A stretch of DNA of 64,000 bases, from contig PABP01000023.1 of assembly GCA_002699585.1 (NCBI GenBank), positions 62,001-126,000 on the forward strand, read 5' to 3'. The position numbers and the translations under genes were made by a program. Source of the DNA: Anaerolineaceae bacterium. Lineage in GTDB: Bacteria > Chloroflexota > Anaerolineae > Aggregatilineales > Phototrophicaceae. The notes beneath the pieces were generated by a model, which was not told where the DNA came from, made no database searches, and was given only the letters and a program-made list of their open reading frames with translations. Positions 29,501 through 46,483 of this stretch are shown here, one piece after another (position 1 is the stretch's first letter; every line of letters starts with the position of its first letter).

Positions 29501-32500
29501 GGGACTGGTGCCCAAATCACGCAGGTCATCTTTGATCTGAGTAGCAGCATCATTCCTGAGGTCGTCTTTGACCCCGATGGCACTGCAGGCGATGCCGTCA
29601 GCAGAGACTTAACGCCAAACAATAGTAGTGACGTCACCACAGGGTTGACGAGCCACAGCTTTAGTAATGCCTACGAAGGCGGTTACTATGGCTTGACCAT
29701 CAACTTTGATGACTTCGATGTAAACGAAACGCTGAACTTTGGCGTGGATATAGATCCTATTAGCATTAAGGGTGGGTCCGCACCTGGACCAAACGAATCA
29801 GGTAGTGTCAGTGGTCTGGAATTATCAGGCTCAGTCGTGACTGTTGTCTTTGACGATGGGACGATCTTCCAGGTAGAGCTATTCCCCAAGGCGGGTAGCG
29901 ACGGCGAAAGCGAGGGCATCGCCCAAAGCCAGATTCCATCGGCCCCGACGATTTCAATGATTGGTGTCAATAACCAGACAATTGTCAGCAATCCCAATCA
30001 GGAAATTCAAGTACAAGGGCCGCTGGGGGCAAATATTCGCTTACTGCAACTAGAAGCTGGCTTGTTTGTTAACGGCCTTGATGGGCCATATGCTGGCGTC
30101 GGCTATAGCATTGATCCCTGGGAAGTCAACAGCGTTGTCGTCGTCGATGAATTCAGTGGCAATACCAGCAACAGCGGTACGGTTGAGTTTAACAACATTG
30201 CGCTTACCCGCAGTAATGATGAAGCTGGCTATAACATCTTCGCAGCCGTTGTTGTCGGCGCGAACGGCTCCACCAGCCCGCTATCTAATATCATCATTGT
30301 GGAATACGATCCTACGGCCACATCCAATGTTCTGTATCGCGTCAATGCAGATGACGCAACGATCCCGGCCATTGATGCTGGCCCTGACTGGGTGGGTGTG
30401 GGTACAGGTGGTGCACAAACTGGCCCTAGCTTTGCTGTGAATGCAGGCCTTATCTCCACGCATGATATTATGGGGCGCGACCCAGGCTTACCAAGCTATG
30501 TACCCCAAGGCCTATTCAGTAAAGAACGTTATGATACATCTGGTACACCGGAGATGACCTGGAACTTCGACGTCACACCGGGTACGTATCAAGTCAACCT
30601 GTTTATGGGCAATGGCTTTAGCGGTACCAGTGCACCTGGGCAGCGTGTCTTTGATATTGAAATAGAAGGCAACCTGGTACTACAGGGCCTGGACCTGAGT
30701 GCTAAGTACGGGCATCAAATCGGCGCTATGGAATCCTTTGTCGTGACTGTGGCCGATAATTCGCTCGATATCACGTTTTTGCATGATGTAGAAAACCCAC
30801 TCATAAACGGTATCGAAATCTTAGCCTATGCGGGTGTTGCTGATACGCCGATTGACGTCACACCCATTGCTGACCAGATCAACGAAGAAACAGACACATC
30901 TGCTGTGAATATCGCGGCTACAGGTGGCGATGGCAACCTGGATTACAGTGGGACAGGCTTGCCACCGGGCTTGGCGGTCGAGCCAACCAATGGCCATATC
31001 TTTGGCACCATTGACCTTGGCGCAGCAACAGGCGGCCCCAACAACGATGGTGTTTATAATGTGACCATCACGGTAGACGATAGCGATGATCATAACGATG
31101 ATGCGGTTAGCATCAGCTTTACATGGATTGTCCAGGAGCAGGGTACGCTCCCGGATCGGCAGGTCATCTACCGTGTGAACAATGGCGGGCCACTTGTAGC
31201 GGCAACGGATGCCAGCGGCGTCGCATGGGAAGAAGACCAGGCAACAGTGGGTGCCAGTGGCACAGCCGTGACGGGTACGCCCTCTGTATACCTTAACCTT
31301 ACAGGGTCGTCAGGTCAGGATAAAACCTACGGTAGCACCTTGCCAACGCAATTTGTGAATAACACAGGCATGCCTGATAGCTTGTTTGCCACAGAGCGCT
31401 TTAACGATATCGCAGGTACTGTCGATAACATGCAATGGGACTTCCCTGTAGAGGCGGGCATCTACGAAGTTAACCTCTATCTCGCAGAAATCTGGTCCGG
31501 CGGGCAGACGGATACAGCACGTCAATTCGATGTCGAATTGGAAGGTAATCTGGTTGCGGATGACTTCTCGATCTATACCAGCTTTGGTGGTTATACAGCC
31601 GGTGTGCTGTCTTACGAAGTCGCTGTTACCGATGGCAATATCGACTTGGACTTCTTGAAAGGGCCGTCCGATAACCCGAAGATTTCAGCCATCGAAATCG
31701 TACAGATCAACCAGAACAATAACAACACCGCACCGGAACTCACGATTGATCCTGATGTGCCAACGAGCATGATCGAGTTGGACACCTTAGTTGTTTCCAT
31801 CCTGGCGACAGATGCTGACGTGAGTGATACCCTGACATTGTCGGGCACCGTCACCGATATCCTGAATAATGAAGTCACCTTTGCCACCTTTGTCGATAAC
31901 GGCGATGATACGGGCACGATTTCAATCCAGCCGTTGGATGGGGACGTGGGCGACTATGTCGTGACGGTATCTGTCACGGATGGTATCGACACCACACAAG
32001 CCTCTTTTGACTTGACTGTCCAGGACAATAACGCCACGGCGGTTTCGTTATACCGTGTGAATGTGGGTGGTCCGGCCTTAGCGGCTGCGGATGGCTCTAG
32101 CCCGGATTGGTCACAAGATCAGGGTGACTTCCTCTCTGCTGGCAACTCGCCGTATCTGTTTGCGAACAGCATCGGTGGCTCACTCTACGATGGTGATGCA
32201 GGTGGCGCTTATAGCGGCCCAATCATCACATCACATCCGTCATTGGTAGGCGACATCGCTGTGCCTGACGCCCTGTTTAACACGGAGCGTTATGATGGGA
32301 CATCAGCACCGGAAATGGCATGGCAGTTCCCGATTGATGGCCCCCGCACCGTCGAAGTTCGTTTGTACTTTGCAGAAATATTCTCTGGCATTGATGCAGC
32401 AGGTAAGCGTGTCTTCGATGTGACTGTTGAAGGCAATCTCCCGCCAGAATTCGACAATATTGACCCATTCGCAATCGCAGGTGCCAAGGGTGCCTTCGTC

Positions 32501-35500
32501 CTGACGACCGTGGTCGATGTTACAGATGGCGTCCTCGATCTGGAGTTGATCCATCAGGTAGAAAACCCGGCCTTAAAGGGCATTGAAATCGTTGAGATGG
32601 TCAGTGGGGCCAATCAAGCGCCTGTGTTCGATCCTGTCGCTGATCAAGAATACGGTATCCTTGCCGAGTTCAATACGGATGATGGCTATACGGATCAGCG
32701 CTTGGTCATCACCGCAACCGATCCTGAAGGCAATAACATCAGCTTTAGCGCAGCAGGCTTACCGGCTGGTTTGACGATCGACACCACCACAGGCGAAATC
32801 ACAGGTACGATTGACGCTGCAGCCCTAACAGGTGGGACCAACAATGATGGCATCCATAATGTGACCATCACAGCGACCGATGATGGTGATCCTGTTGAAG
32901 CCAGTACGTTAGACTTCACAATCACAGTCGTTGACCGCGCGATTACGCTGATTGCACCAATTGATGCCAGCGTTATCGCACCCCTGGCAGGGCTGCCTGT
33001 CGAGTGGACGACCGTCGGTGGCGACGAACCCTTCTTCGACCATACGCATATCTACTTCTACGAAGCAGGTGCGACGGACATTGGCGACTACCTGGGTAGC
33101 CAACCGCTAAATGGCACCGTCGACATCACCAGCGAAACAGGCGGCAGCGACCTACAGACCAATGATGGGATCTGGGCGAGCTTCTTCGATACCAATGGCA
33201 ACTTGCTACCTGGCGACTACGTCATCGAGATGCGATTCGCGTATCCATCACACCTGGAATACCCGACAGATACGATCCTGCCTGTGATGGCGAGCTTTAC
33301 AGTCGAAGAAGTCACCCAAGCGGCTTCTGCTCTGGTAGAAATCACGCCGGGTTTGGGCCTGCCAAGCAGCACCTACAACCCTGACAGCTTCCAGATCACC
33401 AACACCGGCAGCGTCGGTGATGCCGATATTGTTAGTGTCGTCTTGGATCTAAGTACGGCTATCTTGCCGGATATGGTCTTCGACCCGGTGGGTACGGGTG
33501 GCGATGCCACAGCGAACTGCTTAACACCCGACTCAATAGGCGATACACCGGGCTTTGTTGTCCCTTCAGACCCGTGTACAGATCCCTATAGCGTGCCGCA
33601 CAACGGCGGTTACGATGTCTTGACAGTGAACTTTGCTGACTTTAACCCGGGCGAGAGCTTCTTCTTCAGCGGCGATATCGACCCCAACAGCATTCAGGGC
33701 GTTCCTGGTGCAGGTGACGCGGGTTCTGTCAGTGGCTACGAACTTACGGGTGCAACCATCACCATCACGTTCTCAAACGGCGATGTCATCACCAGCGGTT
33801 TGTACGAAGAGGGTTCGCTGGGTGGGGCACAGGCTGTTGTCACCAATGGCGCTTTGCCAGCGCCGTCAATTGCGCTGCAAGCTACGTCCGATAATCCTGT
33901 ATCTGTGACCGACCCCAATCAGGTGGTGGCAATTACAGGCGAACCCAATGCCTACTACAGCCTCTTGCAGATGGATAGCCGTTTGTATATCGCAACGGGC
34001 GCAGATCCGTTCGATGTGTCGGCCTCGGAGTTGCCGTTCTATGCCAATGAAGCCATGAGTGGCAAGAACGTACTCAATGGCCAGTTGGATGGTAGTGGTC
34101 AAGCACTGGTCCCCGTGACCCTGTTGGTCACACCCGGGGAAAGTGGTCAGCCTGATGGCGGCCTAAACCAGTTTATGGCCGTTCAGTCCACCACACCATA
34201 TGCTGTCGACCAACAAGTCAGTACTACCAGCAACGGCCTGACGGTCTTGCTAACGGATAGTCCAGTTAATCAGCCACCTGTAGCCGACGCTGGCCCTGAT
34301 CAGACCGTGACAGATACAGACAATAACGGCTCAGAGTTGGTCACGCTTGATGGTACGGCCAGCACAGATAGCGATGGCACTATCGTCAGCTATGAATGGC
34401 AGCTCGATAGCAATATCATCGGCATTGGCTCAAATCCGGAAGTCAGCTTTGATGTCGGCATCCATGTCGTCACTTTGGTCGTGGTCGATGACATGAACGC
34501 CACCAGCAGTGATGATGTCACCATCACGGTGGAAGCACCCATCAACCAACCGCCCGTTGCCGATGCTGGCCCTGACCAGACCGTGACGGATACGGACAAC
34601 AATGGCTCAGAATCCGTTACACTCGATGGCACCGCCAGCACCGATAGCGATGGCACCATCGTCAGCTATAGCTGGATGGAAAACGGCAGTGAAATCATCA
34701 CAGGTGCCAATCCATCGTATGTGTTCGATGTCGGTACGCACATCGTCACGTTAGTTGTCACAGATGACGCCAATGAGACTAGCACCGACGATGTGACCAT
34801 CGTCGTGAACAGCCCAGCCAATGAAGCCCCGATAGCCAATGCTGGCCTCGACCAGACGGTGACCGATACAGACAACAATGGCTCAGAATCTGTCACACTG
34901 GATGGCACAGCCAGCACGGATAGCGATGGCACCATTGTCAGCTATAGCTGGATGGAAAATAGCGTTGAGATCGCCACAGGTGCAACACCAGCACACGACT
35001 TTGCAGTAGGTGTTCATAATGTGACGCTGATCGTCACCGATGATGATGGCGCTACAAATATCGATAGTGTGGTCATCACAGTCCAGGCAGGGAATCAGCC
35101 ACCCGTGGCTGATGCAGGTGCTGATCAGACGGTGGCCGATGCCGATAACAATGGCAGCGAGCCGATAACACTGGATGGGTCAGCAAGCACAGACCCCGAA
35201 AATGGTGCACTGCGCTTCGTCTGGACAGCGACAGGCTTGACGATCCCAGAAGGGCAGACGGTGAACTTTGACTTCCCGGTCGGGACGACCGAGGTCACGC
35301 TTACAGTCATCGACCCTGAAGGCGCTGAAGATACGGATACGGTCAGCATTACGGTCAACGCAGCGGCCAACCAGCCGCCAATCGCTAATGCAGGCCCTGA
35401 CCAGACCGTGTCGGATGTCGACAGCAGCGGCAGCGAAGATGTGACCCTGGATGCCACCGCCAGCACGGATAGCGACGGCACCATTGTCAGCTATAGCTGG

Positions 35501-38500
35501 ATGGAAAACGGCATTGAAATCGCGACAGGTGCAACACCCACTGTCAACTTCGCAGTCGGCATCCACAACCTGACCCTCATCGTTACCGATGACGCGGCTG
35601 CAACTGGCTTCGATACTGTAGTCATCACAGTGGAAACTGTCAGCACTGGCCCGGATCGCGTGACGGATGGTCTGTTGGCGCTGTACGAATTCAATGAGAA
35701 CAGTGGCAACATCGTTACCGACACCAGCGGGTCGGGTACACCGATGAATCTGACCATCTCCAATACCAACAATGTGGTTTGGGGTGCGGGTACGTTGGAT
35801 ATCACCAACAACACGGTGATTCAGTCCAGCGGTCCGGCAACCAAGTTAATCAACGGCATCGTTTCGACCAGTGAAGTCACGTTGGAAGCTTGGGTCCATC
35901 CCGATAACATCACTCAGAATGGTCCGGCGCGTATAGCAGGCATCTCCGGTGATCCAGCCAACCGCAACATCACGCTGGGGCAGGGGCTGTGGGGTACGCA
36001 ACCGCTGGACGTCTACGATGTTCGCTTGCGGACGCGGTCCACAGGTCCTAACGGCATCCCATCGGTCACGACACCAACGGGCTTGGCCACAACCAATCTG
36101 ACGCATGTGGTCTATACGCATGCCAGCAACGGCACATCGACGCTGTATATTGATGGCATCGCCGTGGCAACGGGTCAAGTTGGTACCGACTTGGGGAACT
36201 GGGACACAGCCTTCCCGATGATCCTGGCCAATGAGCCAACCGGGAATCGCCCATGGCTGGGGACTTTCCACCTGGTAGCCGTCTACAACCAGGCCCTGAC
36301 CGGTGCCGAAGTCACCCAGAACTACAACGCGGGGGCGGATGGCGGTTCAAGTGGACCGACTAACCAACCGCCAGTTGCTAACGCTGGCCCTGATCAGGCG
36401 GTGACGGATACGGATAATAACGGCTCAGAATCTGTCACACTGGATGGTACCGCCAGCACCGATAGCGACGGTACCATCGTCAGCTACAGTTGGGTCGAAG
36501 GTGGTAGCCAGATCGCAACGGGTGCCACCCCGGTAGTGGACCTCAGCGTGGGTACGCACTTCGTCACGTTAGTTGTCACAGACGATGCCAATGAGACCAG
36601 CACCGATGACGTGACCATCGTGGTGAACAGCCTAGCCAATCAAGCGCCTATAGCTAATGCTGGTCCCGACCAGACGGTGACGGATACGGACAGCAATGGC
36701 TCGGAATCTGTCACACTGGATGCTACGGCCAGCACAGACCCCGAAAATGGCGCACTGCGCTTCGTCTGGACAGCGACAGGCTTGACGATCCCAGAAGGGC
36801 AGACGGTTACCTTTGACTTCCCGGTCGGGACGACCGAGGTCACGCTGACGGTCATCGACCCTGAAGGCGCTGAGGATACGGATATGGTTTCCATCACGGT
36901 CAGCGCAGCGGCCAACCAGCCACCCGTCGCCAACGCAGGCGCGGATCAGACCGTCACCGACAGCGACAGCAATGGCTCAGAGTCTGTCACACTCGATGGC
37001 ACTGCCAGCACAGATAGCGATGGCACCATTGTCAGCTATAGCTGGATGGAAAACGGTAGCGAGATCGCTACAGGCGCAACACCCACTGTCAACTTCACAG
37101 TCGGTGTCCACAACCTGACCCTAATCGTTACTGATGATGGGGCTGCAACCGGGTTCGATACCGTGGTCATTACGGTGGGAACAGTCAGCAGTGGCACGGA
37201 TCGCGTGACGGATGGTCTGCTGGCCCTGTACGAATTCAATGAGAACGGTGGCAACATCGTGACTGATACCAGCGGTTCCGGTACGCCCATGAATCTGACC
37301 ATCTCCAACACCAACAATGTGGTTTGGGGTACGGGTACGTTGGATATCACCAACAACACGGTGATTCAATCCAGTGGGCCAGCAACTAAGTTGATCAACG
37401 GCATCGTTTCGACCAGTGAAGTCACACTGGAAGCCTGGATCCATCCCGATAACATCACTCAGAATGGTCCGGCCCGTATAGCCGGTATCTCTGGTGATCC
37501 AGCCAACCGGAACATCACACTGGGGCAGGGGCTGTGGGGTACGCAACCGCTGGATGTCTACGATGTGCGCTTACGGACACAGTCCACAGGTCATAACGGC
37601 ATCCCATCAGTCACGACACCAACGGGCTTGGCCACAACCAATCTGACGCATGTGGTCTACACGCATGCCAGCAACGGCACGTCAACGCTGTATATCAATG
37701 GCGTCGCCGTGGCAACAGGGCAGGTGGGAACAGATTTGGGTGGCTGGGACACAGCCTTCCCGCTGATCCTGGCCAATGAGCCAACCGGTGATCGCCCGTG
37801 GCTGGGTACTTTCCACCTGGTGGCGGTCTATAACGCAGCCCTGAGCAGTGCCGAAGTCACCCAGAACTACAATGCCGGGGCGGATGGTGGTTCAAGCACA
37901 CCGACCAACCAACCGCCGACAGCCAATGCCGGAGCGGACCAGTCCGTCACGGATGTTGACAACAATGGCAGCGAAACCGTGACACTCAACGGCGCTGGTA
38001 GTACAGATAGCGACGGTACCATCGTTAGCTACAGTTGGATCGAAGGGGGCAGCCAGATCGCAACGGGTGCTACCCCAACGGTGGACCTCAGTGTGGGTAC
38101 ACACAACATCACGCTAACGGTCACTGACGATGACGGCGCGACTGCCTTCGATACGGTGGTCATCACCGTGGATGGCGGGACAGTTGATCAGCCGCCAGTG
38201 GCCAACGCCGGACCCGACCAGACCGTCACGGATGTTGACACCAGTGGTAGTGAAATGGTCACCCTGAACGGCTCCGGCAGTAGCGATAGCGATGGCACCA
38301 TTGTCAGCTATAGTTGGACCGAAGGGGGCAGCCAGATCGCAACGGGTGCCAGCCCGACAGTTGACCTCAGCGTGGGCACGCACAACATCACGCTGATCGT
38401 CACCGACGATGGGGGTGCCACCGCCTTCGATACGGTGGTCATCACCGTGAACGGCGGGGCAGTTAATCAGCCGCCAGTGGCCAACGCGGGTCCCGACCAG

Positions 38501-39718
38501 ACCGTCGAAGATACCGACAACAGTGGGACGCAATCGGTGACGCTGAATGGCTCAGCCAGTAGCGATCCTGAAGGTGGGCTGCTGCGCTACATCTGGAGCA
38601 CGACCGGTGTCACCATACCCGAAGGTGCCATTGTCGCCGCCGAGTTCCCAGTGGGTACGACCGAAGTCATGCTGACCGTCGTTGACCCCGAAGGGGCGCA
38701 GGCTACCGATACGGTCGCTATCACGGTGAACGCGGGACCAGGTAATCAGTCGCCGATAGCCAATGCGGGTGCGGATCAAACAGTCACCGACACAGACAGC
38801 AGCGGCAGTGAACTGGTAGCTCTCAATGGCAGTAGCAGTAGCGATCCTGATGGTACCATCGCCAGCTATAGTTGGAACGAAGGGGGCAGTGAGATTGCCA
38901 CGGGTGTCAACCCGACCATAAATCTGTCCGTCGGGACGCACAACATCACGCTGATCGTCACTGACAATGAAGGTGCCACCGCCTTCGATACCGTGGTCAT
39001 CACGGTGGAAGCTGTTAGTACCGGGCCGGATCGGGTAACTGATGGTCTGCTGGCGTTGTACGAGTTCAATGAAAACGCTGGCAGCACCGTCGCAGATACC
39101 AGCGGCGCGGGTACACCCATGAATCTGACAATCGCCAATACGGGTAACGTCACCTGGAATGCGGGCACTCTGACTATCAACAGCAGCACCGTCATTCAAT
39201 CTAGCGGTCCGGCGACCAAGGTCATCAACGCGGTCATGCAGTCGAGTGCGGTCACGCTTGAAGCCTGGATCCAGACCAATAATCTGAGCCAAAGTGGACC
39301 AGCACGTGTGGCGGGTATCTCCGGCAATCCGTCCAACCGGAACATCACGCTAGGGCAGGGGCTATGGGGTAACCAACCGCTCGATGTCTACGATATGCGC
39401 TTAAGGACACGCTCGACAGGTCATAACGGGGTGCCATCTGTATCGACACCAGCAGGTTCGACCACGACCAACCTGACGCATGTAGTCATGACCCATGCAC
39501 CGAACGGAACATCAACAATCTATGTCAACGGTGTGGCCTTGGCTAGCCATAATCAAGGGGCTGACCTGGGTAACTGGGATACTTCGTTCCCGATGGTCCT
39601 GGCAAATGAGCCAACAGGGGATCGGCCCTGGCTGGGGACATACCACTTAGTTGCGGTCTATAGTCGGGCATTAACAAGCGCCGAAGTTCAGCAGAACTTC
39701 AGTTCAGGCGCAGACTAA
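26501..39718 (+). CDS. 4405-residue secreted mosaic: glucose/sorbosone dehydrogenase-like propeller, malectin, PKD and LamG modules
   Basis: A signal peptide ends near residue 43 (TQA-ALPTT). A GTG at 26516 with GGGGAG 7 nt upstream may be the true start. About 45-640 resembles PQQ-dependent sugar dehydrogenase propellers (FGPDGRLYVSQQNG). Asp-rich calcium-type repeats lie at about 645-716 (DEDNDGYTNADE, DLDDDNDTIPD), then a beta sandwich to about 970. A module of about 300 residues occurs twice (about 971-1270 and 2280-2587). Malectin-like domains lie at about 1275-1446, 1552-1740 and 1846-2035, with He_PIG or cadherin-like domains between them. From about 2589 there are twelve PKD repeats interleaved with three LamG modules (about 3051-3280, 3566-3796 and 4176-4405). 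The modules suggest carbohydrate binding. No cell-wall sorting signal is seen. Confidence 0.88.
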   Translation: MGRSTVSNRMGFFNILRTPRWLSIVVILFGVLLLMGPQVTQAALPTTVIFDNSGLSGANVNNPTSIQFGPDGRLYVSQQNGLIKALNVTRNGANDYSVDSTENINLIQSIPNHTDHFGNVVSEPNRQVTAIFVTGTASNPILYVGSSDPRIGAGTSGQDKDLDTNSSMITKLTCTGGLNATGDACVAWDMVHLVRGLPRSEENHSINGLYLDSATNILYAAIGGHTNAGSPSNNFAMTVEYTYSAAIIQVDMTALENDYPIQIDGHGHQYRYDLPTLDDPTRPNVNGIVDPTDPDYTGVDLNDPFGGNDGLNMAKDVLGDPVSIFSPGYRNLYDLIVTEAGRMYGVDNGANEQWGGHPDGEADYAAETTVGLCTNNYLPGEPGSTGTGPGGDDAVNNKNGLHYIRTLVPGDFNYVQPNEPYYAGHPTPLRGNPGVPLPTNPSYPFSPGGAGLFTKGTHSIAGFTGYTSGNTYQDASAAIFRTVILNPSDPNFASQSLPVDWPPYPPSLADPAECDFRNSGQDDNSLANFGPSTNGITEYTASNFNGDLQGALLAAGFNGVIFYIDLSADGKVATNCAPVPQDGVTTPYDCYDLFAQNFGGVALDLVALGDNDPFPGTVWAATYGGDAITVFEPADYGDVVPPTCNGFDDDTIDEDNDGYTNADEIDNVSNPCSASIKPADFDNAFEFGPGNIFKRSDLNDLDDDNDTIPDVIDAFSLNPQNGTNITVPVRKELLNTENGFGNIGFTGMMTNGVDDYFTLIDDSGNELIFGGTSGLYTDPSVSEGDAYGGTNTQQNAFQFGVATGTQTGVFDIETLVGGPFFNNDSTPDDYASTGMFMGAGDQDNYLKLVLTGNVPTEPAGFQIVFESNGQIVSDQQIPVVNILDTLALNLFFRVDPVAGTVQASYQAIGGERTDLGTPVTLTGSLLQAVQGTYSINGVPSALAIGPIATSAGPAVEFSSTWDYFDVYQIVSDNTAAVSVDTVGINSSTYGESSFSITNTSGTGAQITQVIFDLSSSIIPEVVFDPDGTAGDAVSRDLTPNNSSDVTTGLTSHSFSNAYEGGYYGLTINFDDFDVNETLNFGVDIDPISIKGGSAPGPNESGSVSGLELSGSVVTVVFDDGTIFQVELFPKAGSDGESEGIAQSQIPSAPTISMIGVNNQTIVSNPNQEIQVQGPLGANIRLLQLEAGLFVNGLDGPYAGVGYSIDPWEVNSVVVVDEFSGNTSNSGTVEFNNIALTRSNDEAGYNIFAAVVVGANGSTSPLSNIIIVEYDPTATSNVLYRVNADDATIPAIDAGPDWVGVGTGGAQTGPSFAVNAGLISTHDIMGRDPGLPSYVPQGLFSKERYDTSGTPEMTWNFDVTPGTYQVNLFMGNGFSGTSAPGQRVFDIEIEGNLVLQGLDLSAKYGHQIGAMESFVVTVADNSLDITFLHDVENPLINGIEILAYAGVADTPIDVTPIADQINEETDTSAVNIAATGGDGNLDYSGTGLPPGLAVEPTNGHIFGTIDLGAATGGPNNDGVYNVTITVDDSDDHNDDAVSISFTWIVQEQGTLPDRQVIYRVNNGGPLVAATDASGVAWEEDQATVGASGTAVTGTPSVYLNLTGSSGQDKTYGSTLPTQFVNNTGMPDSLFATERFNDIAGTVDNMQWDFPVEAGIYEVNLYLAEIWSGGQTDTARQFDVELEGNLVADDFSIYTSFGGYTAGVLSYEVAVTDGNIDLDFLKGPSDNPKISAIEIVQINQNNNNTAPELTIDPDVPTSMIELDTLVVSILATDADVSDTLTLSGTVTDILNNEVTFATFVDNGDDTGTISIQPLDGDVGDYVVTVSVTDGIDTTQASFDLTVQDNNATAVSLYRVNVGGPALAAADGSSPDWSQDQGDFLSAGNSPYLFANSIGGSLYDGDAGGAYSGPIITSHPSLVGDIAVPDALFNTERYDGTSAPEMAWQFPIDGPRTVEVRLYFAEIFSGIDAAGKRVFDVTVEGNLPPEFDNIDPFAIAGAKGAFVLTTVVDVTDGVLDLELIHQVENPALKGIEIVEMVSGANQAPVFDPVADQEYGILAEFNTDDGYTDQRLVITATDPEGNNISFSAAGLPAGLTIDTTTGEITGTIDAAALTGGTNNDGIHNVTITATDDGDPVEASTLDFTITVVDRAITLIAPIDASVIAPLAGLPVEWTTVGGDEPFFDHTHIYFYEAGATDIGDYLGSQPLNGTVDITSETGGSDLQTNDGIWASFFDTNGNLLPGDYVIEMRFAYPSHLEYPTDTILPVMASFTVEEVTQAASALVEITPGLGLPSSTYNPDSFQITNTGSVGDADIVSVVLDLSTAILPDMVFDPVGTGGDATANCLTPDSIGDTPGFVVPSDPCTDPYSVPHNGGYDVLTVNFADFNPGESFFFSGDIDPNSIQGVPGAGDAGSVSGYELTGATITITFSNGDVITSGLYEEGSLGGAQAVVTNGALPAPSIALQATSDNPVSVTDPNQVVAITGEPNAYYSLLQMDSRLYIATGADPFDVSASELPFYANEAMSGKNVLNGQLDGSGQALVPVTLLVTPGESGQPDGGLNQFMAVQSTTPYAVDQQVSTTSNGLTVLLTDSPVNQPPVADAGPDQTVTDTDNNGSELVTLDGTASTDSDGTIVSYEWQLDSNIIGIGSNPEVSFDVGIHVVTLVVVDDMNATSSDDVTITVEAPINQPPVADAGPDQTVTDTDNNGSESVTLDGTASTDSDGTIVSYSWMENGSEIITGANPSYVFDVGTHIVTLVVTDDANETSTDDVTIVVNSPANEAPIANAGLDQTVTDTDNNGSESVTLDGTASTDSDGTIVSYSWMENSVEIATGATPAHDFAVGVHNVTLIVTDDDGATNIDSVVITVQAGNQPPVADAGADQTVADADNNGSEPITLDGSASTDPENGALRFVWTATGLTIPEGQTVNFDFPVGTTEVTLTVIDPEGAEDTDTVSITVNAAANQPPIANAGPDQTVSDVDSSGSEDVTLDATASTDSDGTIVSYSWMENGIEIATGATPTVNFAVGIHNLTLIVTDDAAATGFDTVVITVETVSTGPDRVTDGLLALYEFNENSGNIVTDTSGSGTPMNLTISNTNNVVWGAGTLDITNNTVIQSSGPATKLINGIVSTSEVTLEAWVHPDNITQNGPARIAGISGDPANRNITLGQGLWGTQPLDVYDVRLRTRSTGPNGIPSVTTPTGLATTNLTHVVYTHASNGTSTLYIDGIAVATGQVGTDLGNWDTAFPMILANEPTGNRPWLGTFHLVAVYNQALTGAEVTQNYNAGADGGSSGPTNQPPVANAGPDQAVTDTDNNGSESVTLDGTASTDSDGTIVSYSWVEGGSQIATGATPVVDLSVGTHFVTLVVTDDANETSTDDVTIVVNSLANQAPIANAGPDQTVTDTDSNGSESVTLDATASTDPENGALRFVWTATGLTIPEGQTVTFDFPVGTTEVTLTVIDPEGAEDTDMVSITVSAAANQPPVANAGADQTVTDSDSNGSESVTLDGTASTDSDGTIVSYSWMENGSEIATGATPTVNFTVGVHNLTLIVTDDGAATGFDTVVITVGTVSSGTDRVTDGLLALYEFNENGGNIVTDTSGSGTPMNLTISNTNNVVWGTGTLDITNNTVIQSSGPATKLINGIVSTSEVTLEAWIHPDNITQNGPARIAGISGDPANRNITLGQGLWGTQPLDVYDVRLRTQSTGHNGIPSVTTPTGLATTNLTHVVYTHASNGTSTLYINGVAVATGQVGTDLGGWDTAFPLILANEPTGDRPWLGTFHLVAVYNAALSSAEVTQNYNAGADGGSSTPTNQPPTANAGADQSVTDVDNNGSETVTLNGAGSTDSDGTIVSYSWIEGGSQIATGATPTVDLSVGTHNITLTVTDDDGATAFDTVVITVDGGTVDQPPVANAGPDQTVTDVDTSGSEMVTLNGSGSSDSDGTIVSYSWTEGGSQIATGASPTVDLSVGTHNITLIVTDDGGATAFDTVVITVNGGAVNQPPVANAGPDQTVEDTDNSGTQSVTLNGSASSDPEGGLLRYIWSTTGVTIPEGAIVAAEFPVGTTEVMLTVVDPEGAQATDTVAITVNAGPGNQSPIANAGADQTVTDTDSSGSELVALNGSSSSDPDGTIASYSWNEGGSEIATGVNPTINLSVGTHNITLIVTDNEGATAFDTVVITVEAVSTGPDRVTDGLLALYEFNENAGSTVADTSGAGTPMNLTIANTGNVTWNAGTLTINSSTVIQSSGPATKVINAVMQSSAVTLEAWIQTNNLSQSGPARVAGISGNPSNRNITLGQGLWGNQPLDVYDMRLRTRSTGHNGVPSVSTPAGSTTTNLTHVVMTHAPNGTSTIYVNGVALASHNQGADLGNWDTSFPMVLANEPTGDRPWLGTYHLVAVYSRALTSAEVQQNFSSGAD
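34830..37905 (+). repeat. Two-copy in-frame tandem duplication (PKD-PKD-PKD-LamG), period 1545 bp
   Basis: Matching landmarks are exactly 1545 bp (515 codons) apart: tgcgcttcgt at 35211 and 36756, gatcgcgtgacgg at 35654 and 37199, ccagaactac at 36316 and 37861. The first PKD of the unit is offset by 1542 bp. The two LamG copies are nearly identical in DNA, so the duplication is recent or homogenised. Confidence 0.85.
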
Positions 39719-39889: not shown

Positions 39890-41713
39890 GGTTACATTTC
39901 TACGCCCGATGCTGTTGGTCAATCGATTTGGCCTGAATTCCTAAGCATATGCCAACGTCGCAAAGGCAGATACGCGCGTCTTGGCACGTTTTTTGCCCAT
40001 CAACCAATCGGTCGCCCGATTGAGTTTCAATCCAGCAGCAGTCAGTAAATGCTGCAAATGCACCTTAACCATCCCGCGATAGCGTGTTCGTCGCATGCCC
40101 ATCTGATTTGTCAGTTGTGACATCGTTCTTTCAATACCCGCTTGCCGACTGTACAGTCTTTCATAGCCAGAAGTCTGTTCGCGTTCACGCGCTCGCTTCA
40201 AGGCTTCATATTCAGCTCGGATGTGAAACTGAACTTGACGGCCACGTGTTTTAGTTTTGGTGCATTGGGCTCGCGCTGGACAAGCGGCACAGATCTCTTT
40301 GGCAAAGCGTACGAAGATCCGTGGTTGTCCATTAGAGTGGTGAGAGTTCATCCATAAATGGCTGGTCTGACCTTGTGGACAGATGGTGACTTGTCGATCA
40401 AAATCGACTTGGAAAGCGGCAGCAGGGTAGGTGTTAAGTTGTTTGTATTGCCAACGCTGAGCAAGTCGGGTGGGACCAATCAAGTCAATGCCATACTGCG
40501 CCTGACTGCGCACCATGTTCGGTGCCGAGACATAGCTCGCATCCACAAATTGTTGTGTGGGTGCTCTTTGTCGGGCTGCCAGCTCAGACTGGATTGCGCC
40601 CAGCGTGGCGGCATCGTTTTTGCTAGAGATGGTCGTTGCCACGTGTGTGATCAGATTGGGTGCATCATCATCACATGTTTCAGTAATCTGGACTTTGTAG
40701 CCAATCCAGTCGCTGCCGCGTTTGCGACCATAGCTCATATCCAGATCATGAGGCGACGAAAATCGGAACGATGCAGGTGCTTCAGATGGATCGCGCCAGT
40801 GGATGCCAGACTCATCCATGTAGAACTGGTAGATGCACAAGCGGTGCAAAAATGTCACAGAAGTTAGGTGGCGTAGGGTAGGTGGGGCCGTATCAGAGTA
40901 GATTTGCTCCAGCAAGGTAATGGAATCTTGACCAATCTGCTCAGCTTGAGTTTGACGTTCGCTCGTCTTTTTGGGTAAGTGATATTCGCTGAAGGGTTTG
41001 CTGTAACGATCAAACCAGGACGTGAGAACCCAGCTTTTTAGCCAATCCGGTTCACATCTGGCGACCCGATTGAGAGCAGCGCGCAGACTTTCACCAATCA
41101 GTTCCAGGCGGCTTAGATCACGTACCTGGCCGAGGATATGGGTGGCATCAGTGCGTTGTCTGCCAGAGGCGATCAACAAGTCATGAGATTGCAGAACCTC
41201 CAGCAGACGCTCGAAGAGTTGCGTTTCGGCCTGATGTTGGAGTAAGCGCTGGCGAAACTCGGTCAGGACGGAGTAGTCAAAACCAGGGTCGCTCAGCTCC
41301 AGGCTGAGGGCATACTTCCAATCGATGCGACTACGAACCGCATCAGCCGCTTCACGGTCGCTCAGATTTTCTGCGAATTGCATCAAAGTCACCAGCGCCA
41401 AGCGCCAGGGAGCAATCCCGGTACAGCCCACATTAGGATACAGATCACTAAAGTCCTCGTCTTGGAAGATGGTTCCCAAACGATCCCGCAATTGCACATA
41501 GCGATTGCCACCTTGAAAAGCGATGTGAGCCACACGAGCGGTTTCATCTGGAACAGCTGGAATGGGTTGTGGATGGAGGATCATACATCACCTTGTTTCA
41601 GTCGATTAGGAAACAAATGCGAGCTTGATGATTATGACCTAAGGCTTGGCAACAATCGACAAGGTGGAAGCACCAAAAGGCCTATGGTTACACAACGAGC
41701 GTAGAAGCGAACC
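39890..41713 (-). mobile_element. IS1182-family-like insertion sequence
   Basis: One transposase gene (39941-41584) lies between imperfect terminal inverted repeats. The left end is GGTTACATTTCTACGCCCG (39890-39908). The right end, read inward, is GGTTCGCTTCTACGCTCG (41713-41696). They match at about 15 of 18 positions with one gap. No clear target duplication is seen, so the exact outer ends are uncertain by several bases. Confidence 0.65.
39941..41584 (-). CDS. IS1182-family transposase (DDE)
   Basis: 547 residues, uninterrupted. The N-terminal region (LYPNVGCTGIAPWRLALVTL, then LSDREAADAVRSRIDWKYAL and FDYSVLTEFRQRL) matches the DUF772-type N-terminus of IS1182/IS5-group transposases. Later segments contain DATHILGQVRDL, VQITETCD and FVDASYVSA, consistent with the DDE core. 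A Cys-rich patch (KEICAACPARAQCTK) is typical of IS1182. The C-terminal IERTMSQLTNQMGMRRTRYR is also a family hallmark and carries the last acidic residue. The gene looks intact and may be active. Confidence 0.92.
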   Translation of the reverse strand: MILHPQPIPAVPDETARVAHIAFQGGNRYVQLRDRLGTIFQDEDFSDLYPNVGCTGIAPWRLALVTLMQFAENLSDREAADAVRSRIDWKYALSLELSDPGFDYSVLTEFRQRLLQHQAETQLFERLLEVLQSHDLLIASGRQRTDATHILGQVRDLSRLELIGESLRAALNRVARCEPDWLKSWVLTSWFDRYSKPFSEYHLPKKTSERQTQAEQIGQDSITLLEQIYSDTAPPTLRHLTSVTFLHRLCIYQFYMDESGIHWRDPSEAPASFRFSSPHDLDMSYGRKRGSDWIGYKVQITETCDDDAPNLITHVATTISSKNDAATLGAIQSELAARQRAPTQQFVDASYVSAPNMVRSQAQYGIDLIGPTRLAQRWQYKQLNTYPAAAFQVDFDRQVTICPQGQTSHLWMNSHHSNGQPRIFVRFAKEICAACPARAQCTKTKTRGRQVQFHIRAEYEALKRAREREQTSGYERLYSRQAGIERTMSQLTNQMGMRRTRYRGMVKVHLQHLLTAAGLKLNRATDWLMGKKRAKTRVSAFATLAYA

Positions 41714-41883: not shown

Positions 41884-43149
41884 CTAGTCGTCATCATCAT
41901 CGCGTGACCCACGATCCGAGTTGTCATCATCGTCATCGTTATCATCGTCATCGTTATCATCGTCATCATCGTCGTCGTCGTTATCATTATGATCATTATC
42001 ATTATGATCGTCATCGTTGTCATTCGAGTTGAAGTTTACATTGCCGTTGCTGTCATCATCGTTATCGTTCGAATTGAAATTTGTGTTGTCATTGCTGTTT
42101 GTGTTGTTATTGCCACTATTACCACCCATATCGATGGACAGGACTACGCCTGTTTGCGCATCGATGACGATATCAATGTCATGGCTTGTTTCGATATCCC
42201 AGACCAGCGTGCCACCGAACATGCTCTTCAGCTCAATGTCTGTAATGGCAGTGTTGGGGTAGATGCTCAAAACAATCGCGATGGCTTGGTCGGCAGTGAT
42301 AGCTGTGTCAACGGATGAATTGTCGTTGCTGTTGCCATTGTCGTCATTGTCATTGCTATTCGTGTTGGCGTTGTCATTGGCATTGCTGTTGTTGTCGTTA
42401 CTATTTGCATTGCTGTTGCCATTGTCGTTGTTATTGTCGTCATCACGACCGAAAGCGAATTCAATTTGACGGGCGAACATCTGACCATTTTGTACGCGGA
42501 CATGCACGCGGACACGTACACCAATCATCAGCTCGTTTCTGATTTCTGCACCTTCGGTTGAAATCGTCTGGCCAGATACCACAACGAAACCCTGGCCTAT
42601 CTGTTCAAGCGTACCGGAGAACTCGAATTCACCAGATTGTGGTTGTGAAGAATCATTTGACGCGCGGTCATCGGGACCATAAGCTTCGACTTCACGGGCG
42701 ACCCACGTGTTGGCGGTTACCGTATAGGCATGGACTTTAACCATCTGGCCAACAGTCACACCTTGCTTGACTTCTGCGCCACTAACGTCGATCATCTGGC
42801 CATTTACGAACATATTCGGAGCCGTGAAGGATTCCAGCGTACCAATCAGTTCAGCCTCGCCGACTTCAACACCTTCATCAACGCCCTTGACTTCGCGGGC
42901 AAGAATACTGCCGTCGAGCAGCAAAACGCCTTCTACCTGCACGATTTCATCAACGGTAATCGCTGTGTTCATCTCAGCGGCACTAATATCAACTTCGAGG
43001 CCGTTTACGACGATGCTATCGAGCGTCATGCTCTCGATGACGCCAACTAGTTCAACCTCGGGTACGGATTGGGCTTGTAGCGGGATGGCCGCCAGGATAA
43101 CGATGAGAATGGCGGCAATGAGTGTGCGTGGCTTAAAAGCTGTAGTCAT
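41884..43149 (-). CDS. Secreted protein with three DUF5666 repeats, a PepSY domain and Asn/Asp-rich tracts
   Basis: 421 residues from ATG 43149, which has AGGAGA 8 nt upstream; a longer frame to 43188 has no such site. A signal peptide ends at about residue 27 (LQAQS). Three DUF5666-like beta domains follow (about 31-90, 98-156, 173-233; VVNGLEVDIS, FVNGQMIDVS, VVSGQTISTE). Next come an Asn/Asp/Ser linker (235-278), a PepSY-like domain (about 282-345; AIAIVLSIYPNTAITDI, LVWDIETSHDIDIVID) and a 75-residue Asp/Asn tail. The PepSY domain and tail closely resemble those of the anti-sigma factor at 43262. An ECF-type promoter copy lies at 43195-43225. It is the likely effector of that sigma factor. 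Confidence 0.85.
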   Translation of the reverse strand: MTTAFKPRTLIAAILIVILAAIPLQAQSVPEVELVGVIESMTLDSIVVNGLEVDISAAEMNTAITVDEIVQVEGVLLLDGSILAREVKGVDEGVEVGEAELIGTLESFTAPNMFVNGQMIDVSGAEVKQGVTVGQMVKVHAYTVTANTWVAREVEAYGPDDRASNDSSQPQSGEFEFSGTLEQIGQGFVVVSGQTISTEGAEIRNELMIGVRVRVHVRVQNGQMFARQIEFAFGRDDDNNNDNGNSNANSNDNNSNANDNANTNSNDNDDNGNSNDNSSVDTAITADQAIAIVLSIYPNTAITDIELKSMFGGTLVWDIETSHDIDIVIDAQTGVVLSIDMGGNSGNNNTNSNDNTNFNSNDNDDDSNGNVNFNSNDNDDDHNDNDHNDNDDDDDDDDNDDDDNDDDDDNSDRGSRDDDDD

Positions 43150-43194: not shown

Positions 43195-43225
43195 AATGGA
43201 GTCCAGGCAAGCAGCAAAAGGTTTC
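43195..43225 (-). promoter_or_regulatory. ECF-type promoter of the DUF5666/PepSY gene
   Basis: Minus strand: -35 GAAACC (43225-43220), 16-bp spacer, -10 GACTCCATT (43203-43195), about 46 nt before the start codon. It matches the element at 46453-46483, including the flanks ATTGRYC before and TTTTGC after GAAACC. Confidence 0.8.
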
Positions 43226-43261
43226 GGCCAATTTTCAGGACCTTAGTCCTGGTTTCACAGC

Positions 43262-44302
43262 TCAGTCGTCGTCATTGCTAGAGCCACTGTCAGAGTTATT
43301 GTCGTTACTATTGTCATCATCATCGTTGTCATCATCGTCGTTGTCATCATCATCGTTGTCGTCATTATCATTGGTGTTGGTATTATCGTCGCTACCCCCA
43401 CTGCTAGAGTTGTCATTGGTAGCACCATTACTATTGCTACCAGACCCGCTGGAGCCCCCACCATTTGATTCATTGGTGTTGGTATTTTCATTGCTGGTGC
43501 CGTTGTTGCTTCCAGATTGTTCAATCACTAAGATAGTGCCACAGGCAACATCAATATCGATGAGGATGTTATGGCTTGTGCGCACTTCCCAGACAAGTAT
43601 CTCGCCGTACTTGAGTGTCTGTTGAATGCTCGTGATGGTCGTGTTGGGATAGATGCTCAAAACACGCGCAATCGCATCTTCTTCCGTTAGCGGCGCACCA
43701 CAGCCTGGGACAAAGGTCGCACTGGGTACGCTGACCTGCGTTGCAGACGGGACAACGGTCGGCGTCACCGAATTGTTTGATGTCATGGTCAGGGTTGCGG
43801 TCGGTGATGGCGATACTGTTAGAGTGACCCTTGGCGTTTCTGTCGGTGTTTTTGTTTGCGTCGAGGTTACCGTCAGGGTCAAAGTTGCTGTCGAGGTTGC
43901 AGAGCTATCCGGTACCAGCGTTTCTAGTGTCAATGTTGCGATAATGGCGTCGTCTTCCTCGGGTGGTAGATCCGGGCGCGACAGCATGAACACGGTAACA
44001 GCCATCGTCAAGACAAGCATGACAGCCGCGATCAGAAGCTGATACGGTGGACGTCGACGTCGAATTGGCATGATCTTAGGACTGAGACTCTGTTGCAGCA
44101 TCTTCTGCCAGACAATGTCTTGATCTTGCAGTAGTTCAGATTGTGTAATGCGCAAGCGTTGTACGACCTTGCTGGTCTCCAAAAGGGGGCGCAATCGGTC
44201 AGCAAATTGCGGGTACGCGCGCAGGCACTGCTCGATCGATTGGCCTGTAGCAATCCGGTTGATGCAATCGTCAAATGCGTCGGTGATGTTATGTGCTGAC
44301 AT
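43262..44302 (-). CDS. Anti-sigma factor with an extracytoplasmic PepSY domain and Asn/Asp-rich tail
   Basis: 346 residues from ATG 44302, which has GGAG 8 nt upstream; a GTG at 44311 overlapping the sigma stop is the alternative. Residues 1-85 form a cytoplasmic helical region (CINRIATGQSIEQCLRAYP) placed where anti-sigma factors bind ECF sigma factors, with no zinc-binding HxxxCxxC motif. After RRRR, a single membrane helix lies at about 88-107. Outside are a Thr/Ser/Pro stalk (110-200), a PepSY-like domain (about 203-263; AIARVLSIYPNTTI, LVWEVRTSHNILIDID) and an Asp/Asn/Ser tail to the end. Binding of a ligand or cation outside could release the sigma factor. Confidence 0.83.
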   Translation of the reverse strand: MSAHNITDAFDDCINRIATGQSIEQCLRAYPQFADRLRPLLETSKVVQRLRITQSELLQDQDIVWQKMLQQSLSPKIMPIRRRRPPYQLLIAAVMLVLTMAVTVFMLSRPDLPPEEDDAIIATLTLETLVPDSSATSTATLTLTVTSTQTKTPTETPRVTLTVSPSPTATLTMTSNNSVTPTVVPSATQVSVPSATFVPGCGAPLTEEDAIARVLSIYPNTTITSIQQTLKYGEILVWEVRTSHNILIDIDVACGTILVIEQSGSNNGTSNENTNTNESNGGGSSGSGSNSNGATNDNSSSGGSDDNTNTNDNDDNDDDDNDDDDNDDDDNSNDNNSDSGSSNDDD

Positions 44303-44307
44303 ATTGT

Positions 44308-44877
44308 TCACTCCGGTTGCTCTGCGCTTAGGATCTGGCGGAGCGTATCTACTGCTCGGAATTGCAGTGACTTAATCGCGCTCACACTCCGATCCATGAG
44401 GTCAGCCGTCTCCTGTATGCTGAGCCCCTGAACAAAGCGCAAAATCAATACCTCTTGTTGTTCCGCAACGAGCATATTAAGGGCCTGCTTGACACGGTCA
44501 ATTTGCATCGACTGAAATGCTACGTGTTCCGGGTTGCTCTCTGCAGAGCTCGGAATCCACTCACCCAACTCAGTAATGTTGATTCGCTTTTCCCGCCCGT
44601 AGTGGTCCGCGATTTTGTTGCGAGCCACCCGAAACAGCCATCCTCGAAGGTGCGAACTAGGCGGACTATTTCCGCTCAGTGCCACGAAAAAGTCTAGAAA
44701 GACTTCAGCAACGATGTCCTGTGCCTGCTCGCGATTATTCACTCTCAATCGGATGAACTGGAAAACAGGTGAAAAGTATCGCTCGTAAATGGCACGCTGG
44801 GCATCAAGATCCTTATTACGCGCCTTCGATAACAAATTGTCGTCGGCTGCGACGTCTGGCAAAACAATAACAATCAT
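44308..44877 (-). CDS. ECF-type RNA polymerase sigma factor
   Basis: 189 residues from ATG 44877. An in-frame ATG at 44910 would overlap the previous gene. Region 2 (AIYERYFSPVFQFIRLRV, AQDIVAEVFLDFF, LRGWLFRVARNKIADHY) and region 4 (LVAEQQEVLILRFVQGLSIQETADLM, SVSAIKSLQFRAVDTL) are both complete, with the region 1.1 and 3 domains absent as in ECF factors. It is followed directly by its anti-sigma gene. The same promoter-like element precedes this operon and the DUF5666 gene, implying that it drives its own synthesis and that gene. Confidence 0.93.
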   Translation of the reverse strand: MIVIVLPDVAADDNLLSKARNKDLDAQRAIYERYFSPVFQFIRLRVNNREQAQDIVAEVFLDFFVALSGNSPPSSHLRGWLFRVARNKIADHYGREKRINITELGEWIPSSAESNPEHVAFQSMQIDRVKQALNMLVAEQQEVLILRFVQGLSIQETADLMDRSVSAIKSLQFRAVDTLRQILSAEQPE

Positions 44878-44890
44878 AAAGTCTACTTCT

Positions 44891-46417
44891 CTATGGGCCG
44901 GCAGCATCAATCAGCCAGATTTGGCTGTGCTCATCCTGATATACGAGTTGCATAGCCGGATCGGATTCCGCATCTTGAGAAAATGCTTCATGATTATTAT
45001 CGCTGACAACATATCGTGCGCCAAACATTTCTTGAATCAGTACGGATGGACGATCCACCAAACCCTGGGTAATCGCTACCCACTGGTTCCAGACAATAGG
45101 ATTGGCAACCTGCAAATACGTCGGATCCAGCCCAACCAGATAGGCATTATGCGTATTATGGAAAAACAACCGCGTGAAGTCGTCCCAATCGGTCTGAAAA
45201 ACCATCTCACCTAATTCAGTATTTTCGATTAACCAGGCGGAAGCGCCGCGCATGTAATCAAAATCCTTCGTAGCCTGAATATCGGCGTGAACCTGCCTGA
45301 CTGTCGAAATCGCTAACAGGAAGATCGGTAGAGCGAGCATGACAGGATAGGCACTTTTGTGAACAAACCGGGGCGTCCATGTTGGCAGGATGTCGCGCCA
45401 GAGTATTGCCGAGCGCCCCCAGGCGATGGCGCAAAACAACAGGGCAAAAATCGGGTAATACTCGATGAATCGGCGTGATCGAAAAACCATGTATAGCATG
45501 AGCAGCGTTACAAACAGCACCGTTGTTTCAATCTGGTCACGACCAACTTTGCGGAAACTGCCAGCCAGGATGCCCGCCGCCAGAGCCAGCAACGCCCCTA
45601 GCGAATTTTCCATGAGATCGCCAGTGGTGTAGGGATACCACTCATTACCGACACGAACGTTGGCGCCGATATCCACCTTCTCGCCCAGGTGGTCAACGAT
45701 GAAGGCAATATTCTGAGGGAAGTATGGGTTTATCACCAATCCGAGGACTACCCCAGCAACCGTATAAGCCACGGGTCGCCAGAGAATACGGCGGTCAGTG
45801 ATCCAGACGGCAACAGCATGCAGACCAACGATGGCGGGAAGCAACACAAATCCGTTGTAGAGCCAGGCGAAGGCAAAGGCCATGAGAATCAGCCAGAGAT
45901 AGCGCCGCTGGAACAACACTTGCAGTGTAATGAGCAGAATCAATACAGCTGCGCCCTGGGTGCGGATCATCAGCATACGATAGAGAAATGGCGTCGATAC
46001 AGCCACAATGCCGAGTGTCCAGAGCCATGCATAATGAACTTTGACTGTGCGCAGAAGGGACCAGAAAGCAACAGCGATTGCGCCAAAAACCAGCGACTGC
46101 GCTAACTTTGCTCCAGTGATTCCACCAAGTGTCATAAAAGGTGCTACATACAGGTGATACAGCAGATGATGATCCACGAACTGCTCATTGCTGAGGATGG
46201 TCATCGGTAGCCAGGGAAAGTTCAGGCGCAAGCGGCCCTGCTCAATGATCTGGGCCGCAATGCGACTATGATAATAATCGTCTGTGCCAATGAATCCTTC
46301 CACGCGGGTCAGCAGCACCAAAGCCAGCGTCAGCGCTAGCGAAAACAGCACTACACCCGTACTCCAAATGACGAGCTTGGATCGTGTTTCTTTCTCTGTT
46401 TTGACCAAATTATGCAT
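44891..46417 (-). CDS. Polytopic GT-C-type glycosyltransferase-like membrane protein
   Basis: 508 residues from ATG 46417; the longer frame begins with TTG. There are about ten or more membrane helices. After TM1 an outer loop carries GTDDYYHSRIAAQIIE, which resembles the acidic DxD-type motif of the first loop in GT-C enzymes such as STT3 and related mannosyltransferases. A soluble C-terminal part lies at about 400-508 (QTDWDDFTRLFFHN, FGARYVVSDN). It is the first gene of the ECF operon, 13 nt before the sigma gene. It may transfer lipid-linked sugars to surface proteins; the acceptor is unknown. Confidence 0.72.
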   Translation of the reverse strand: MHNLVKTEKETRSKLVIWSTGVVLFSLALTLALVLLTRVEGFIGTDDYYHSRIAAQIIEQGRLRLNFPWLPMTILSNEQFVDHHLLYHLYVAPFMTLGGITGAKLAQSLVFGAIAVAFWSLLRTVKVHYAWLWTLGIVAVSTPFLYRMLMIRTQGAAVLILLITLQVLFQRRYLWLILMAFAFAWLYNGFVLLPAIVGLHAVAVWITDRRILWRPVAYTVAGVVLGLVINPYFPQNIAFIVDHLGEKVDIGANVRVGNEWYPYTTGDLMENSLGALLALAAGILAGSFRKVGRDQIETTVLFVTLLMLYMVFRSRRFIEYYPIFALLFCAIAWGRSAILWRDILPTWTPRFVHKSAYPVMLALPIFLLAISTVRQVHADIQATKDFDYMRGASAWLIENTELGEMVFQTDWDDFTRLFFHNTHNAYLVGLDPTYLQVANPIVWNQWVAITQGLVDRPSVLIQEMFGARYVVSDNNHEAFSQDAESDPAMQLVYQDEHSQIWLIDAAGP

Positions 46418-46452
46418 TTGCAAGCTTTCAGCATAGTTTCATGGATATCGTC

Positions 46453-46483
46453 AATGAAGTCTCGAAACAGTGCAAAAGGTTTC
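46453..46483 (-). promoter_or_regulatory. ECF-type autoregulatory promoter of the GT-C/sigma operon
   Basis: Minus strand: -35 GAAACC (46483-46478), 16-bp spacer, -10 GACTTCATT (46461-46453), about 36 nt before the ATG at 46417. It is nearly identical in sequence and spacing to 43195-43225, as expected if the sigma factor at 44308 recognises both. Confidence 0.8.

Follow-up and report, generated by a model that had tools for sequence, protein, structure and literature searches.

A predicted ECF sigma factor switch with a repeated promoter and a secreted OB-fold target in a Chloroflexota bacterium

We analyzed a window of 64,000 nucleotides from Anaerolineaceae bacterium (assembly GCA_002699585.1, contig PABP01000023.1; own genome 6.70 Mb, 6,701,443 bases), whose minus strand carries a gene for an extracytoplasmic function (ECF) sigma factor and two copies of one promoter-like site. 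Along this strand, the first copy, P1, is followed by genes for a membrane protein, the sigma factor, and a putative anti-sigma factor, and the second, P2, by a gene whose product is probably secreted and carries DUF5666 and PepSY domains. We read this module as a dedicated, positively autoregulated ECF sigma switch that serves a secreted OB-fold protein, and sequence comparisons lead us to give this reading a probability of roughly 0.87. An initial annotation of this DNA had proposed that the repeated site is the sigma factor's promoter and the DUF5666/PepSY gene its target; relatives of the module bear this out as a prediction, as the motif recurs at both places and tracks the sigma gene in 154 genomes.

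To our knowledge, envelope regulation in Chloroflexota has been little studied. The module would give this phylum an ECF sigma regulon that is bounded and testable, with promoter motif, sigma factor, and target readable together from ~50 genomes. It would also present a natural case in which the type of −10 element changed with the sigma clade, and the domain match between sensor and product could reveal how an anti-sigma factor gauges its own product.

Two copies of the site in the window

P1, the predicted ECF-type promoter of the sigma operon, spans positions 46453–46483 of the minus strand, with GAAACC at 46483–46478, TTTT at 46477–46474, and GACT at 46461–46458. P2, the predicted ECF-type promoter of the DUF5666/PepSY gene, spans 43195–43225 of the same strand, with GAAACC at 43225–43220, TTTT at 43219–43216, and GACT at 43203–43200. 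Both match GAAACC-N16-GACTYCATT with zero mismatches, as annotated, and the identical spacing reported for them is a fixed 16-base gap that is also kept in relatives. The edges of the motif had been over-read: the GAAACC-GACT core holds, but the YCATT after GACT is inconsistent among relatives. Likewise, of the flanks described as conserved, TTTT is kept in relatives, whereas ATTGRYC ahead of GAAACC and the GC that follows TTTT are common to the two sites in the window and kept inconsistently in relatives.

The exact pattern occurs twice in the whole genome, where uniform letters predict ~0.025 occurrences. Because the pattern was derived from these two sites, its rarity is no test by itself, and independent tests were therefore sought. 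With up to three mismatches, the window holds 3 matches versus 2.9 expected from shuffles, so only the exact matches stand out. At up to two mismatches, the whole genome has 15 matches and the reversed pattern 9; with one mismatch allowed, the counts are 7 (P1, P2, and 5 others) and 16, respectively. A loose-pattern search for more targets was rejected on these counts, which lie near the controls, and on the matrix scores of the 3 kb around each of the 5 extra matches, none above 2.0.

A matrix from relatives only (25 training sites, namely the 27-site set described below minus the window's two) ranks P1 first in the 64 kb window with a score of 31.2 and P2 second with 20.5; the third-best score, 14.9 at position 6009, lies opposite a coding gene. 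When a model that includes both sites is run against the own genome, only P1 and P2 pass an E value of 0.01, and the next match has 0.31. Many random matches unlinked to envelope genes, named in the initial annotation as an outcome that would refute it, are thus absent. The relatives-only model finds P1 at E 6.6e-4, and own-genome support is weaker for P2 than for P1.

Just upstream of P2, at 43236–43251, lies a perfect inverted repeat, CAGGAC-CTTA-GTCCTG, with no minus-strand T run. Near the equivalents of P2 in seven other loci that have both promoters, L229 carries a different repeat whose arms are 7 bases long, and in L237 there is a weak repeat rich in A; the remaining five have no inverted repeat with 6-base arms within 80 bases.

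The motif in loci of relatives

Sigma matches (E 1e-25) were found in 36 of 61 genomes, own included. The first sample consisted of 34 loci around sigma relatives, 33 from relatives and one a paralog locus of the own genome. Built solely on the window's two sites, an unrefined matrix scored its best loci at 26.4, 19.5, 19.5, and 18.7, against top control scores of 14.5 and 13.5; in their lower halves the two distributions overlap. Refined on the 34 loci and trained on part of them, the matrix gave 30 matches above 15, distributed over 27 loci, and 0 in reversed sequence. It settled mainly on sites that precede the sigma operon or a DUF5666 gene; two of the 30 matches, L051 at 1275 and L068 at 8559, lead to no recognized gene.

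From the refined-matrix matches, 27 sites were picked by hand and aligned without gaps. The matches of L060, L063, L068, and L070 were omitted, as were the second one in L051 and the low-scoring ones in L052, L069, and L070. The conserved core consists of GNAACY-TTTT followed by GACT at a fixed 16 bases past GNAACY, that is, GNAACYTTTT-N12-GACT. Five columns are invariant: the A and C of the −35 element, two T, and the C of the −10 element. The −10 letters read GACT in 9 sites, GTCG in 9, GACG in 4, CTCG in 4, and GTCT in 1.

Twenty further loci were taken down the sigma E-value list from genomes outside the training set, with G091:C85 skipped, and 18 of them have a match above 12 at the module. 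The exceptions are L233, which has none, and L243, whose match lies elsewhere on the other strand. In 80 named loci (L087–L166), the relatives-only model returned 11 matches at E up to 1.

A two-promoter layout, defined as one site ahead of the sigma gene or operon plus a second one past the anti-sigma gene, is found in eight loci (window, L047, L050, L229–L232, and L237), and every −10 element in them is GACT. The window's full gene order, with a PepSY-bearing anti-sigma followed by a promoter and then a DUF5666-PepSY gene, is present in six: the window, L229, L230, L231, L232, and L237. A local profile detects one DUF5666 copy in L229 and three in each of L230, L231, L232, and L237. L047 has both promoters and a second gene that runs off the contig end, and L050 has both promoters and an anti-sigma without detected PepSY. 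In several other relatives, a single GTCG-like site precedes a DUF5666-LysM gene, behind which come sigma and anti-sigma, in some of these loci with the membrane protein in between. The module is also carried by a contig titled Pleurocapsa minor, a cyanobacterium (L093), whose assembly is probably mislabeled or mixed.

Motif and sigma factor across genomes

We scanned 154 genomes of the order, 20 of them training genomes, for the motif with the relatives-only model (cut-off E 0.01) and for the sigma factor (cut-off E 1e-40); scans covering more than 40 genomes ran with stricter filters. The motif was found in 51 genomes, the sigma factor in 55, both in 45, and neither in 93. Among the 134 non-training genomes, both occur in 25, sigma only in 10, motif only in 6, and neither in 93 (Fisher p 8.6e-14, relatedness uncorrected), which corresponds to a motif frequency of 25/35 with the sigma factor versus 6/99 without it. 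In the motif-only genomes G005, G030, G075, and G096, the site precedes a DUF5666 gene, and in G027 it does not (G088 left out).

Motif-positive genomes have one to four matches each, and the regulon therefore looks very small; because site, sigma factor, and target recur together in many relatives, it can be read from the DNA. What the sequences show directly is that the sites exist, are conserved, are few, and are linked both to the sigma gene and to DUF5666 genes. Among the best 40 loci of two scans (40 and 66 matches), many of which were training sites, 31 have a DUF5666 or LysM gene downstream and 6 lead into a sigma operon; L179, L199, and L200 are misfits. In two genomes, the target lies on a different contig from the sigma gene and has a fitting −10 type. 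At L249, GACT precedes a gene with two DUF5666 domains and a PepSY domain, the partner being the GACT-type sigma of L049, near which no local target was detected; at L190, CTCG precedes a gene with three DUF5666 domains and a LysM domain, the partner being the CTCG-type sigma of L051.

Weaker matches at L250–L257 precede unrelated or no recognized genes, and another at L258 precedes a DUF5666-LysM gene. L259 (G085:C91) has a GTCG-type site before a short PepSY gene with an Asn/Asp-rich stretch and no DUF5666 found, and this gene is perhaps a further kind of target. At L077 (G015:C21, ~2712), a GACT site precedes a short PepSY gene.

The −10 letters and the sigma clade

Eleven sigma factors, each with an upstream GACT site, fall into one clade (support 99/96) on a tree to which −10 types were assigned by eye. 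Residues D62 and F64, numbered from the ATG at 44877, are fixed in the GACT clade and absent from 36 other sigmas compared, a comparison that omits seven rows with a CCTC-like −10. K88 is likewise fixed in the clade and is found elsewhere only in L077. All three residues are located in region 2. For E. coli sigma-E, a published study describes loop L3 (res. 63–72) as forming the pocket for the −10 base (PMC6372665); D62, F64, and K88 were placed against this loop by eye. One main event underlies the association between sigma residues and GACT.

The own genome also encodes a paralog of the sigma factor (L078, G000:C28:904478-904996), 40% identical and of the same family, in a distant clade. The site upstream of it has the shared −35 type, which sits inside a perfect palindrome, CGCAACG-TTTT-CGTTGCG, and has CCTC as its −10.

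Proposed mechanism and alternatives

We infer recognition by this sigma factor, anti-sigma action, signal, and feedback from the sequence comparisons. RNA polymerase bearing the sigma factor would read GNAACYTTTT as the −35 element and GACT as the −10 element at fixed spacing, starting at P1 to produce the membrane protein, sigma, and anti-sigma, and at P2 to produce the secreted DUF5666/PepSY protein. In the resting state, the membrane-anchored anti-sigma would hold the sigma factor. Once a signal from the envelope reaches the outer part of the anti-sigma, most likely its PepSY domain, the sigma factor would be freed, and it would then raise its own operon and yield more of the secreted protein.

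Several observations weigh against this scheme. P2 fails E 0.05 under the relatives-only model and gets past 0.01 only when P2 itself is part of the model. No match above 15 was found in 7 of the 34 loci (L052, L056, L062, L073, L076, L078, and L079); L062, L073, L076, and L078 have a similar −35 with CTCC, CGTC, or CCTC as −10, and L079 lacks a complete sigma open reading frame (ORF). Only 7 of the 14 closest named loci (L087–L100) matched at E up to 1, 10 of the 55 sigma genomes have no motif match, and 6 genomes have the motif but no sigma factor. The link between sigma residues and GACT comes from one clade. Outside it, L077, entered on the tree as unknown although its site reads GACT, has a weaker GACT site and a sigma factor without D62 and F64 and with K88. 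Because L077 reads GACT with K88 alone, K88 may matter, and D62 and F64 seem not to be needed everywhere; in L077 the GACT type may have arisen a second time, independently.

In one alternative, P2 would be a decayed or chance copy that plays no part, and the DUF5666 gene would be expressed by read-through from P1. The gap between the scores of P2 and P1, the missed threshold of 0.05, and the placement of the genes on one strand with a short gap all fit read-through, but a second GACT site is kept at the same place in the seven other two-promoter loci, and we consider decay very unlikely. The sites might instead bind another regulator common to both units, such as a repressor or a two-component activator, since the motif is known from sequence alone. 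Its form, however, is that of an ECF promoter: the −35 contains AAC, the −10 contains GTC or GAC, and the gap is constant. Moreover, genomes with the sigma gene tend to have the motif, and which −10 letters it has depends largely on the sigma clade, leaving such a regulator very unlikely. An equally slight chance falls to promoters of another ECF sigma of the genome, with the neighboring sigma one of several users: a first look gave 26 candidate sigma relatives, and the own-genome paralog shares the −35 type, yet that paralog's site reads CCTC and its clade is distant, and 11/11 GACT-clade sigmas have an upstream GACT, with the weaker L077 as the sole outsider.

Relation to known systems

The predicted sigma switch can be set beside three known systems. 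BldN targets and outer domains differ from those here. With sigma-BldN/RsbN of Streptomyces, an ECF sigma factor paired with a class III anti-sigma, the module nevertheless has in common that BldN is the best NCBIfam model for the sigma factor and that a putative membrane anti-sigma lies directly downstream; it departs from that pair in that the sigma stays below the BldN cut-off and nothing in the PDB is a good match for the anti-sigma N-terminus.

SigI does not belong to the ECF sigma factors, and the outer parts of some RsgI proteins bear carbohydrate-binding modules resembling those found in the target enzymes. One report on Clostridium thermocellum describes several SigI/RsgI sigma/anti-sigma pairs that sense outside substrates (PMC12203970). 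In another, sigma genes are among SigI's own predicted targets, and the elements put forward are either CNNAAA with CGAA or CCCYYAAA with CGWA (PMC4711584). The idea would be the same here, with PepSY or LysM as outer domains and one secreted OB-fold target.

Canonical ECF systems are characterized by autoregulation, an anti-sigma downstream, AAC in the −35, and CGT in the −10 (PMC8103513). The module is alike in the AAC of its −35, the putative anti-sigma downstream, and predicted autoregulation, whereas its clade has GACT as −10 instead of CGT, and its anti-sigma lies outside all Pfam anti-sigma models. A literature search by title on the system's domains and on Chloroflexi ECF sigmas returned no paper on this system, the main ECF reclassification not being covered.

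Matching end domains of anti-sigma and target

Anti-sigma and target carry the same outer end domain in 30 of 35 pairs (LysM 17, PepSY 6, and neither 7, the last meaning none detected by local profiles). The 35 pairs include only loci with both partners typed, and where several candidate targets lay near one sigma, the one bearing an end domain was taken first, which could favor agreement. The discordant pairs are L048, L050, L077, L245, and L248. On the tree, PepSY changes 1 time in the anti-sigma and 2 times in the target, and LysM 5 and 6 times; a sign test on these cannot reach significance. The match was consequently rejected as proof of function, few evolutionary changes lying behind the 30/35 agreement. 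The paired end domains tend to switch together, and on the PepSY branch the −10 letters changed along with the sigma factor.

PepSY identity is 48% within genomes versus 54% and 57% in same-role comparisons, and LysM identity is 44% versus 55% and 51%. Because similarity within genomes is no higher than that between same-role proteins, recent copying is unlikely, and neither duplication nor gene conversion between anti-sigma and target in the recent past is favored. PepSY domains of within-genome pairs are slightly closer than anti-sigma–target pairs between genomes (48 vs 43), and an old exchange of PepSY between the two proteins may have taken place. Pfam confirms LysM and DUF5666 in both partners at L234, and DUF5667 appears in LysM-type anti-sigmas, above cut-off in L239 and below it in L234.

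A tentative idea, which we hold to be rather doubtful, is that the anti-sigma senses the target's own envelope ligand via the twin end domain, so that the secreted protein, by occupying the ligand, would shut off its own production. In this view, sensor and product would compete through the twin domain, PepSY here and LysM in most relatives, in the manner of a supply-and-demand thermostat.

Genes of the module and their neighbors

The sigma gene (44308–44877, minus strand) encodes a protein, analyzed as 187 residues, in which Sigma70_r2, Sigma70_r4, and TIGR02937 score above cut-off, and which has sigma regions 2 and 4 only, as expected of an ECF factor. Its nearest family model, BldN (TIGR02952), gives 142.6 bits against a cut-off of 206.45, which places it outside that family. 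The protein scores as ECF, with no SigI family among the best 25 of 91 NCBIfam families. The best solved relative of its profile is chain 6dxo_A, an ECF sigma factor, from what we take to be the BldN-RsbN complex. Titles of the nearest named sigma relatives are mostly Chloroflexota, Anaerolineae.

The putative anti-sigma (43262–44302, minus strand) comprises a three-helix N-terminal domain, a probable membrane helix, an outer PepSY-like domain, and an Asn/Asp-rich tail, and no Pfam anti-sigma model matches it. Its putative role is read from gene order, the layout of its domains, and their conservation. Its PepSY domain (PF03413) scores 18.2 bits, below the cut-off of 24, is detected by a local profile, and is 50% identical to that of the target over 58 residues. 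The model of the N-terminus shows three helices and a further membrane-type helix, with a predicted local distance difference test (pLDDT) of 83 and a predicted TM-score (pTM) of 0.47; it returned 11 weak PDB matches, the best at E 1.9, with 6dxo not among them. The N-terminal sequence profile matched only GspF (E 0.009), which was taken for chance, and one chain at E 1.1 in the PDB. The Streptomyces locus L164 was dropped as a source of RsbN, as reading its ORFs revealed no recognizable RsbN.

The target gene (41884–43149, minus strand) encodes a protein that is probably secreted and that combines three DUF5666 (OB-fold-like) domains with a PepSY domain and an Asn/Asp-rich tail. DUF5666 (PF18914) scores 50 bits against a cut-off of 27, with three repeats by local profile, and PepSY (PF03413) 34.4 bits against 24. 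In the AlphaFold model, the DUF5666 part is predicted to form three five-stranded barrels, with pLDDT mostly ~80–90 (whole model 69, pTM 0.41). Because the PepSY part is poor, with blocks of pLDDT 38–62, only the DUF5666 part was interpreted. Foldseek matches the barrels to OB-fold proteins, including cold-shock domains, CusF, and PilY2; TM-scores are low for the whole model; for single domains, those on the target side go as high as 0.68. A long Asn/Asp/Ser-rich tail closes both target and anti-sigma, and this common feature may be involved in metal binding or related to the wall.

The first operon gene (44891–46417, minus strand; longer start at 46423) is an ORF for a membrane protein of unconfirmed family that lies near the sigma gene in many relatives. 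Its annotation as GT-C found no backing: neither Pfam nor NCBIfam matches it, and a 12-member profile has no PDB match. Two of the 12 members match EpsG (best E 0.0011). Relatives of this protein occur in 18 of the 80 named sigma-relative loci, mostly upstream of sigma and downstream in three, and the pairing extends well beyond close relatives.

A transposase gene (DDE_Tnp_1_6, DUF772) at 39941–41584 comes after the target gene, which puts the module next to a mobile element. On the opposite strand, at 26501–39718, the module is adjoined by a gene for a giant protein of 4405 residues, probably secreted and with many PKD-like repeats, a label given by eye.

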